This document shows, piece by piece, positions 1 through 2,011 of a stretch of DNA of 64,000 nucleotides (within the stretch, counting starts at the first letter, position 1; each line of letters opens with the position of its first letter). The notes beneath the pieces are model-generated. The model worked only from the letters and a program-made list of their open reading frames with translations. It was not told the DNA's origin and did not search any database. The translations under genes and the position numbers were made by a program. Source of the stretch: Desulfohalobiaceae bacterium S24 (GTDB taxonomy: Bacteria > Desulfobacterota > Desulfovibrionia > Desulfovibrionales > Desulfothermaceae); contig JAABTT010000002.1 in the NCBI GenBank assembly GCA_011389765.1, forward strand, positions 1 to 64,000, written 5' to 3'.

Positions 1-1
1 C

Positions 2-397
2 TTTAAGGGAAATGATTTTGATGCGTTGCGTCAGTCGTTGCAGGCTTTTTTTGCTTCCATCCCCCATGACTGGTACCGTAAGAATCAGCTGGCCGGCTAC
101 GAGGGCTATTATGCCTCTATCGTCTACTGCTATTTCACGGCCCTTGGGCTGGATGTCCGGCCTGAGGAAAGCACCAGCCGGGGGCGGATCAATCTGGTGA
201 TCCGCTTTGCCGGCCGGATCTATGTCCTGGAATTCAAGGTGAATGAACTGGCTGATTCAGGACAATCCTTGGAGCAAATTAAAACGCGTGGTTATGCCGA
301 GAAGTTTGCGGGACAGGAAGTCTATCTGGTCGGAGCGGAGTTTTCCAGCGAGAAGCGAAATATTGAGAGGTTTGAGTGGGAGCGGTGGAAGGGATGA
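2..397 (+). CDS. AAA-ATPase/PD-(D/E)XK nuclease family protein, C-terminal part
   Basis: The reading frame is open from the first bases of the window (F-K-G-N-D-F-D-A-L-R-Q), so only the C-terminal ~131 residues are seen. The text matches the C-terminal nuclease-like domain (PF08011 type) of AAA-ATPase-like proteins: a short helical segment ending in ASIPHDWY, the GYEGYYASIVYCYF helix, GLDVRPEESTSRGRINLVI, then the core VLEFKV and a QIKTRGYAEKF tail. The D of the usual D-x(n)-ExK core is replaced by N in RINLVI, while E-F-K is present, so nuclease activity is doubtful. These proteins are abundant in anaerobes and have no settled function; a mobile or defence-related role is a guess. Confidence 0.8.
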   Translation, partial: FKGNDFDALRQSLQAFFASIPHDWYRKNQLAGYEGYYASIVYCYFTALGLDVRPEESTSRGRINLVIRFAGRIYVLEFKVNELADSGQSLEQIKTRGYAEKFAGQEVYLVGAEFSSEKRNIERFEWERWKG

Positions 398-477
398 TTT
401 CAGGAAGGGGTTGGCTTGTTCAAGATATACTTTGATTATCATTGGGTTGCGAATCAAGCACATGAAAAGAAGAATTG

Positions 478-690
478 TGTCCACGAATGCTCACGAATAG
501 GCACGAATGAAGAATGTAATTTTCCAGCCTGCTGATCGCAGGCAGGAAAGTTTCATCCCGCTGTCGCGGGATAAGAGCTTCATTGTCTTTCTGCCATGCC
601 GCAAGGCGATGGCATTTGCCTGCCAGGCTCTTATTGCCGGCAGGCAAAAAGAAAACCAATTCGTGACCATTCGTGAGCATTCGTGGACAA
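478..690. repeat. composite palindromic element with nested hairpins
   Basis: This fills the 392-base gap between the nuclease-like gene and wecB. The outer arms, 479-508 and 658-687, are inverted copies of about 30 bases differing in a three-base block, built from the repeated word ATTCGTG. Inside lie four further perfect or near-perfect hairpins: 527-543 (GCCTGC/GCAGGC), 555-572 (ATCCCGC/GCGGGAT), 592-614 (TGCCAT/ATGGCA) and 615-648 (TTTGCCTGCC/GGCAGGCAAA). A competing pairing ATAAGAGC (571-578)/GCTCTTAT (627-634) also exists. No coding signal is seen. It looks like a non-autonomous palindromic repeat rather than a terminator. Confidence 0.75.
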
Positions 691-789
691 CCATCTGCTT
701 TCTTTTTTTCAAAGTATCAGTGGAAGACGACTCACAAATCAGGCAATGCGCTGGATGGGTAAGTTCGTGCGGGGTGGGGGTGGAGCAGA

Positions 790-1941
790 ATGAAGATTAT
801 CAGTGTGGTGGGGGCGCGGCCGAATTTTATGAAGATCGCCCCGTTTATCCGGGCGATTGAGAGGCATAATCAGAGTGCGCTGCCAAAGATCGAGCATGTG
901 CTTGTGCATACCGGGCAGCACTATGATGACACTATGTCCAAACGTTTTTTTCAGGCCCTGGACATCCCTGAGGCGGATATCAATCTTGGCGTTGGGTCAG
1001 GGACCCATTCCGAACAGGTCGGGCAGACCATGATCGCCTTTGAGACGGTGCTCAGAGGGGAAAAGCCGGATTGGGTGGTTGTGGTCGGGGATGTGAACGC
1101 AACCCTGGCCTGTTCAGTGACAGCCAAAAAGGAGCTGGTCAAGCTTGCGCATATCGAGGCGGGACTGCGTTCCCGGGATATGAGCATGCCAGAGGAGATC
1201 AACCGCTTGGTCACTGATCGCCTGTCTGATCTGTTGCTGACTCCGGATCGCTTGTCAGGGGAAAATCTACGACGGGAGGGGGTGCCTGAGGAGCGGATCA
1301 AATTTGTGGGCAACATCATGATCGACACCCTGGAGGCCCAGCGGTATAAGGCGGAGCGATTGAGTATCAAGGCGATCATCCGGGACAATGCCTCTCTTGG
1401 CCAGACCCTTGATCCCGCTTCCTTGAACTCTGATTCTCTCGCTTATGGACTGGTTACCATGCATCGACCGTCGAACGTCGATGTGAAAGATGTTTTGCAG
1501 CCTATTCTCGATTTTTTTCTCCACGAGGTCTCCAAGGAGATATTGCTTTTCTGGCCGGTCCATCCCAGGGCGGTGCGGATGCTGCAGAGGTTCGATCTTT
1601 GGCAGAGAGCACTGGAATGTCCGAATCTCCTTCTCCTGCATCCCATCGGTTATCAGGAACTCTTGCGCTTGAATATGGATGCCAGGTTGATGTTTACAGA
1701 CAGCGGCGGGTGTCAGGAGGAGTGCTGCGTATTGGGGACGCCGTGTTTGACCCTGCGCTGGAACACCGAGCGGCCGGTGACGCTTCAAGAACACGGCGGG
1801 GTCAGCGTCCTGGTCGGCAATGATGTGGGGCAGATTCGAAAGGCCTATCATGCCGTTTTGGAAGCAGAGCGCCACCCGGTTCGACCGGAATTGTGGGACG
1901 GGAAGACTGCGATACGATGCGTCCAAAGCATTCTGTCTTGA
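790..1941 (+). CDS. wecB: UDP-N-acetylglucosamine 2-epimerase (non-hydrolysing)
   Basis: The 383-residue product has the family's usual length and opens with the typical VVGARPNFMKIAP. It interconverts UDP-GlcNAc and UDP-ManNAc in the cytoplasm, feeding enterobacterial-common-antigen-like, O-antigen or capsule sugars. Expected active-site residues are visible: D101 in GDVNATLA, E123 in HIEAGLRS, E136 in MPEEINR, and H225 in MHRPSN; TDSGGCQEE and GTPCLTLR supply the UDP-binding C-terminal half. GGAG lies five bases before the ATG. No other polysaccharide gene is adjacent, so this copy stands alone; which polymer it serves cannot be told. Confidence 0.95.
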   Translation: MKIISVVGARPNFMKIAPFIRAIERHNQSALPKIEHVLVHTGQHYDDTMSKRFFQALDIPEADINLGVGSGTHSEQVGQTMIAFETVLRGEKPDWVVVVGDVNATLACSVTAKKELVKLAHIEAGLRSRDMSMPEEINRLVTDRLSDLLLTPDRLSGENLRREGVPEERIKFVGNIMIDTLEAQRYKAERLSIKAIIRDNASLGQTLDPASLNSDSLAYGLVTMHRPSNVDVKDVLQPILDFFLHEVSKEILLFWPVHPRAVRMLQRFDLWQRALECPNLLLLHPIGYQELLRLNMDARLMFTDSGGCQEECCVLGTPCLTLRWNTERPVTLQEHGGVSVLVGNDVGQIRKAYHAVLEAERHPVRPELWDGKTAIRCVQSILS

Positions 1942-2011
1942 TGGGTAAAATCAGCTTAAAATACTCATACGGGTATTGCCCGGAGTGGATAAATATTGAT
2001 ATAACGACAGG

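Follow-up and report, generated by a model that had tools for sequence, protein, structure and literature searches.

The palindromic element and its setting

The window, by which is meant the whole 64,000-nucleotide stretch of DNA that was analysed, contains an intergenic palindrome (positions 478–690) flanked by two genes on the same strand. The upstream gene (2–397) terminates in a PDDEXK_9 nuclease domain (PF08011), a Pfam family different from the GxxExxY family (TIGR04256/PF13366) considered below, and the downstream gene, from position 790, encodes a UDP-GlcNAc 2-epimerase (PF02350). The preliminary description of a multi-hairpin palindrome of about 210 bases is borne out, the predicted MFE being −122.9 kcal/mol for the forward and −123.4 kcal/mol for the reverse strand, compared with shuffle means of −66.1 and −66.7 (z −12.5 and −13.2); none of 200 dinucleotide shuffles reached this stability on either strand. 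The outer arms had been described as built from ATTCGTG words, and this also proved correct. An inverted repeat (466–508 versus 659–701) is 84% complementary, and within it each core arm consists of three CACGAAT words at 10-bp steps that conform to the arm template defined below (Table 1). When the 64 kb were scanned with this template at up to one mismatch the two core arms were the sole matches, and a double-word pattern occurred four times against 0.43 expected.

The core arms enclose four hairpins, as had been noted from the sequence, and these were read by eye from the computed fold. A module similar to hairpin 1 occurs in one related locus (L099) and a partial one in another (L390), and hairpin 3 is the first part of a module common to other copies. 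The 150 bases of hairpins between the arms include no GxxExxY (TIGR04256) gene, nor is any other recognisable gene enclosed. The element is longer than the palindrome, as homology to fuller copies spans 426–731, and it is taken here to extend from about 426 to 732.

Table 1. Features of the palindromic element in the window
Feature	Positions	Strand	Basis
Left-end remnant of outer MITE, TATACTTTG	426–434	+	Start of homology to fuller copies
Left arm, C plus three CACGAAT words with 3-base gaps	481–508	+	0 mismatches to arm template
Hairpin 1, TTTCC-A-GCCTGC / GCAGGC-A-GGAAA	521–549	+	Fold
Hairpin 2, ATCCCGC / GCGGGAT	555–572	+	Fold
Hairpin 3, TGCCATGCC / GGC-G-ATGGCA	592–614	+	Fold; copy comparison
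Hairpin 4, TTTGCCTGCC.. / ..GGCAGGCAAA, loop has TCTTATT	615–648	+	Fold; copy comparison
Right arm, three ATTCGTG words, left arm inverted	659–686	−	0 mismatches to arm template
Right end of outer MITE, CAAAGTATCAGTGGAAGACGACT	710–732	−	3 mismatches to end pattern

An outer MITE and a separable inner unit

A single copy would have told against the preliminary description, and a search of the genome disposes of that objection by detecting many. The window element gave 15 match rows in its own genome (itself and its own opposite-strand arms included) and a fuller copy gave 37, where one copy may give several rows; interspersed copies are found in this genome and in both other genomes of the genus. 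The window element was matched in six of the 61 genomes searched. Three belong to the window's genus and contain full copies; the others represent a second genus of the same order, in which the match is via the arms and the interior is different. Among these 61 genomes the outer layer, a miniature inverted-repeat element (MITE), is confined to the window's genus, and no plasmid homologues of the window element were found.

The outer MITE has 23-bp inverted ends of the type GGTGCTCWTCCGCTTATACTTTG. Matches to the end pattern with up to three mismatches number 21, 28, and 64 in the three same-genus genomes, and the reversed pattern gave none. Target duplications of 8 bp are evident from 36 distinct copies (72 rows, both strands), in which the identity of the flanking 8-mers was 0.78 compared with 0.28 for mispaired flanks; the duplication is exact in 14 of the 36, and lengths of 4–7, 9, and 10 bp remained at background level. 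No duplication is detectable at the window copy because of decay at its left end, where the outermost 14 bases of the consensus are degraded and only 9 bp remain. An empty site for this copy was not found, its two flanks matching different contigs in two other genomes (G001 and G002). No transposase was seen in the MITE elements read, and an autonomous partner was not found.

Copies containing only one of the two layers have been detected. The outer layer occurs without the inner unit in L037 (107 bp) and L396 (118 bp), the inner unit occurs without the outer ends in the window's own genome (C2:3479–3707), arms lacking the outer ends of the window family are present in other genera as well, and L098 and L030 have an interior that lies in reverse orientation with respect to the ends or arms. 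Outer-only copies, inner-only copies, and inverted interiors together establish that the layers are separable modules; the window element is nested, with a MITE outside and a separable palindromic unit with modular hairpins inside. The outer-only MITEs could have arisen by deletion and need not be ancestral. Three further elements (L391, L393, and L394; 394–506 bp) carry the same outer ends around quite different palindromic cargo, without CRCNRAN arms on both sides.

The element had been suggested to be either a non-autonomous mobile element or a structured RNA. The former is supported by the interspersed copies, the 8-bp duplications in the family, the lack of a gene, and the existence of copies with and without the inner layer; the latter is neither shown nor excluded. 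Conserved pairing, the absence of which from relatives would have counted against the preliminary description, is supported in part. When 13 copies were aligned, double changes that preserve pairing were seen, once or more, in 12 of the 67 consensus pairs, and derive largely from the most diverged copies, but the covariation term itself is 0, and the support from compensated pairs is therefore modest.

In one other genus (g16; L060, L065, L073, and L078) a like layout of arms and hairpins is combined with a different outer sequence, and AATAAGA (or its complement) persists as a hairpin loop on an unrelated stem. This hints at recognition of the loop. A genome of the window's order (G028) contains 79 exact matches to the arm pattern, the next highest among 247 genomes being the window's own genome with 24.

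Iterated-word arms at GxxExxY genes

The only PF13366 match in the window's own genome (C2:519–866) is located between two instances of the element, one of them partial; directly after the gene comes a hairpin module together with a right arm. The words beside this gene are CACGGAT and those of the window copy CACGAAT. The arms do not simply bracket the gene, the inverted-pair score within 300 bp being only 9.0.

A survey of the class detected the GxxExxY family in 19 of 247 genomes, two of them by weak partial matches, and many of the genes possess inverted iterated-word arms; all 19 proteins of alignment A1 match TIGR04256. At least 574 relatives were identified in a scan of titled contigs, of which the best 80 were kept. 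These are ranked by similarity to one subfamily and are not a random sample, and by contig titles they represent more than 10 phyla, including Planctomycetota, Verrucomicrobia, Acidobacteria, Bacteroidia, Chloroflexi, Armatimonadetes, Calditrichota, Gemmatimonadota, Spirochaetes, and Neomarinimicrobiota.

The arm template, which was fixed after several loci had already been seen, consists of C plus three CRCNRAN words with gaps of 2–4, at most one mismatch, within 350 bp of the gene and in the correct orientation. Both arms were present at 67 of the 79 titled GxxExxY loci scored (from the best 80 of at least 574), compared with 0/79 for shuffled flanks and 0/62 for flanks 1.2 kb away. The template was met on both sides by none of 24 PF05635 genes (1/24 at two mismatches) and, within the class sample, by none of 27 PF01797 (RAYT) genes and only 8 of 29 GxxExxY loci; GxxExxY subfamilies outside the template type use other words. 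In later sets it was met by 1/29 phylum best hits and 7/20 lower-ranked picks, and at three mismatches it no longer discriminates (76/79 observed, 12/79 shuffled).

The later phylum sets, in which the lower-ranked hits were hand-picked, were judged by an untuned inverted-pair score rather than by the template. A score of at least 15 was obtained for 14/27 class, 67/79 titled, 24/29 phylum-best, and 17/20 lower-ranked GxxExxY loci, for 18/24 PF05635 and 0/26 PF01797 loci, and for none in any of the shuffled sets. Loci with flanks shorter than 120 bp were dropped throughout (for example, 1 of the 80 titled). Two weak PF13366 hits (L117 and L118) were left out of the class set for this score, as were L262, L266, and L283 from the PF01797 set; of 30 PF05635 loci, L256–L259 were outside the template scoring and L255 was also outside the inverted-pair score. 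Gene ends of fixed length were used for PF05635 and PF01797, both for this score and for the direction counts given below.

PF05635, the family of four-helix-bundle proteins of 23S rRNA intervening sequences (IVP/S23p; L230–L254), had been adopted as a negative control and failed as such, since inverted arms of other tandem words, often ∼7 bp in length (GTGAACT, GGAAGTC, GAGAGCT, and others), account for its 18/24. The RAYT genes are thus the only clean control for the inverted-pair score. Because the PF05635 arms are analogous, the presence of iterated words does not by itself indicate GxxExxY; that indication comes only from the type of word.

At the level of genomes, the arm pattern (two or more matches) was present in 12 of the 19 with the gene versus 10 of the 228 without it, and outside family f5 in 12/15 versus 7/25 (p 0.002). 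These associations were counted by eye from tables and ignore relatedness.

The words are a property of the individual unit. For 97 loci with both arms at up to two mismatches, the agreement of free word positions is 0.851 within the left arm and 0.936 between a unit's left and right arms, compared with 0.545 after permutation of arms across units (highest value in 5,000 permutations, 0.631). Letter 7 of the word requires 10 changes on the protein tree versus at least 24 in 200 shuffles, and in 13 of 14 rows words ending in G are associated with proteins of the LLE type and not of the FLE type. Such agreement is compatible both with joint inheritance of arms and gene and with the protein recognising the words, and does not distinguish between the two.

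Two very similar tandem GxxExxY genes, each with arms, are located at G012:C4:248148–248944 (L103/L119) and apparently represent a duplication of the unit. At three other loci (L106, L110, and L112) the units lie beside genes that appear to encode BrxL-like or restriction-modification proteins, presumably parts of defence operons.

Presence, absence, and orientation of GxxExxY units

Comparison of related genomes revealed sites with and without units. A 501-bp unit in G022 is absent from G051, where its flanks run together (74% identity), and in G060 and G045 the upstream gene is followed by a short intergenic sequence that contains no unit. In G033 a 430-bp unit, the gene of which carries a stop, is located after the end of the upstream gene; at the same gene end G057 and G037 possess gene-deleted miniatures with both arms, the one in G037 being followed by a fuller unit, and G054 has no unit there, its downstream side being different.

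Most units lie sense-wise within operons. Of the 45 titled units that could be scored, both neighbours point the same way as the gene in 32 and the opposite way in one, and the distance from the stop codon of a same-direction upstream gene to the arm has a median of 10 bp (n = 37). Counts of sense to antisense GxxExxY genes among same-direction neighbour pairs were 40:3, 10:0, and 16:1; the corresponding counts were 15:0 for PF05635 and 5:6 for RAYT genes.

The GxxExxY protein

In 54 aligned GxxExxY proteins D63 and K75 are invariant and E73 is nearly so; of the 61 listed, L146 (in-frame stop), L169, L310, L326, L340, L354, and L358 were left out. An AlphaFold2 model (pLDDT 95.8, pTM 0.87) has as its best structural match the Cas4-type protein SSO0001 (4ic1; Z 9.0, rmsd 3.7, 96 residues). 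Lambda exonuclease, splicing endonucleases, and a Holliday-junction resolvase were also returned by Foldseek, none at E <0.001, and no sequence relatives were found in the PDB at E up to 0.1. By its modelled fold the protein fits a minimal Cas4-like PD-(D/E)XK nuclease, although the model does not tell the substrate.

A description of a mobile unit of the GxxExxY family was not found in the open-licence PMC literature, nor, among the matches listed, was one of iterated-word arms or of the arm strings. Only open-licence PMC papers were searched, so that prior description elsewhere is possible. The name GxxExxY appears in two of the 5.39 million papers covered (PMC8934634 and PMC12085832), once in each, and accessions of the family in one; in PMC8934634 it labels a gene in the vicinity of a CRISPR-like reverse transcriptase.

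Origin of the window element

It is proposed that the window element is a gene-less derivative of a GxxExxY unit residing within a MITE, the words of the arms being read, by inference, by the nuclease; the probability of this reading is put at roughly 0.6. The element is regarded as a derivative and not as a member of the units because the window copy lacks a GxxExxY gene. The outer layer would be moved in trans by a DDE-type transposase, an inference for which no transposase has been found, and the inner unit is inferred to descend from a GxxExxY unit that lost its gene and acquired hairpin modules. In the absence of a nuclease assay it can only be inferred that the GxxExxY protein reads the iterated words in the arms of its own unit and that it cuts or processes the arm hairpin, either as DNA during spread or as RNA in an operon transcript. 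In such a transcript the ∼28-bp stem could also be excised by RNase III, in the manner of intervening sequences of 23S rRNA. That a gene-less, multi-copy element has arms of the kind found around GxxExxY genes in many phyla suggests a little-noticed type of selfish element.

A wider reading is offered more tentatively, namely that at least two unrelated protein families, the small GxxExxY nucleases and the S23p four-helix bundles, define widespread minimal selfish units, each comprising one small ORF between inverted word arms (∼8–10 bp for GxxExxY and ∼7 bp for S23p) and lying sense-wise between operon genes. The word would be a protein-read address, words and proteins would diversify together, and gene-less offspring, the window element among them, would constitute much of the interspersed palindromic DNA in the genomes concerned. 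These proposals provide testable biology for a protein family with almost no literature, offer an origin for one class of intergenic palindromes of these genomes as gene-less offspring of GxxExxY units, and tie such palindromes to rRNA intervening sequences, for the small protein of which we know of no settled role. Should the word prove to be a protein-read address, the natural word and protein pairs (at least 574) could be used to decode recognition.

Alternative explanations

The strongest rival, or complement, to the derivation from a GxxExxY unit rests on analogy and considers the elements to be RNA elements like intervening sequences, in which the ∼28-bp arm stem would be cut from the transcript by RNase III, insertions in operons would therefore be tolerated, and small ORFs, whether GxxExxY or S23p (PF05635), would be optional cargo. 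The intervening sequence of Coxiella is 428 nt in length, has a terminal stem of 28 bp, contains an S23p ORF, and is excised by RNase III (PMC4990558). The sense-wise location of GxxExxY and PF05635 units in operons, which RAYT genes do not share, and the position of the arm shortly after an upstream stop codon are as this model would have them, but the sense bias is also possible through selection for expression, there are no RNA data, and neither the iteration of words nor their agreement with the protein tree is explained. The model is considered possible but rather unlikely. A reading as structured RNA only is not rejected, the pairing being strong and partly compensated; there are no RNA data, and Rfam gave no match at E up to 1 for window positions 1–2000.

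An ordinary MITE, in which words and hairpins are the element's own parts, bound by its own transposase, and in which the resemblance to GxxExxY arms has arisen by convergence or incidentally through shared hosts, is favoured by the classic ends and the 8-bp duplications. Most copies found by similarity to a full copy have both layers in the same order, although this is a biased draw. Against it stand the arms that occur without these ends, in the window's own genome and in other genera, the ends that occur without arms, and the two inverted interiors, and this explanation is considered improbable.

Very little speaks for a regulatory leader or terminator located between the epimerase gene and its upstream neighbour: the genes on either side are on the same strand, the hairpins are strong, and there is one weak terminator-like site, but copies are interspersed at unrelated places, the terminator-like count is 1 against 0.5 expected, no promoter-like site was detected, and Rfam gave no match. 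A REP/BIME-type element moved by RAYT, for which short hairpins, inverted pairs, and a position between genes could be cited, is rejected as barely conceivable, since neither GTAG/CTAC nor CGTC/GACG tetranucleotides occur anywhere in 478–690, template arms were absent from both sides of all 27 Y1-transposase (PF01797) genes, and REP sequences are not expected to give 8-bp duplications.

Comparison with known systems

Like bacterial MITEs, the window element is short and gene-less, has inverted ends and exists in many copies, and its family generates a target duplication of fixed length; unlike them, the family contains a second palindromic unit, which has arms of iterated words and is separable. 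REP/BIME elements are similar in being interspersed hairpin palindromes that are non-autonomous and linked to a small enzyme gene. Their defining GTAG or CGTC tag adjoining a hairpin, as given in PMC3733652, is missing from the window element, which differs further in having arms unlinked to RAYT genes and an outer layer that produces target duplications.

The GxxExxY family provides genes bracketed by arms like those of the window, although the gene itself is missing from the window copy. Finally, 23S rRNA intervening sequences resemble the GxxExxY units measured (430–501 bp), which have a ∼28-bp arm stem and one small ORF, and the 28-bp arms of the window match the ∼28-bp stem reported for the Coxiella intervening sequence (PMC4990558). 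In contrast to these sequences, the window element lies between protein genes (PF08011 and PF02350) and not in 23S rRNA, the arms consist of iterated words, and the ORF of GxxExxY units, absent from the window copy, belongs to a nuclease family.
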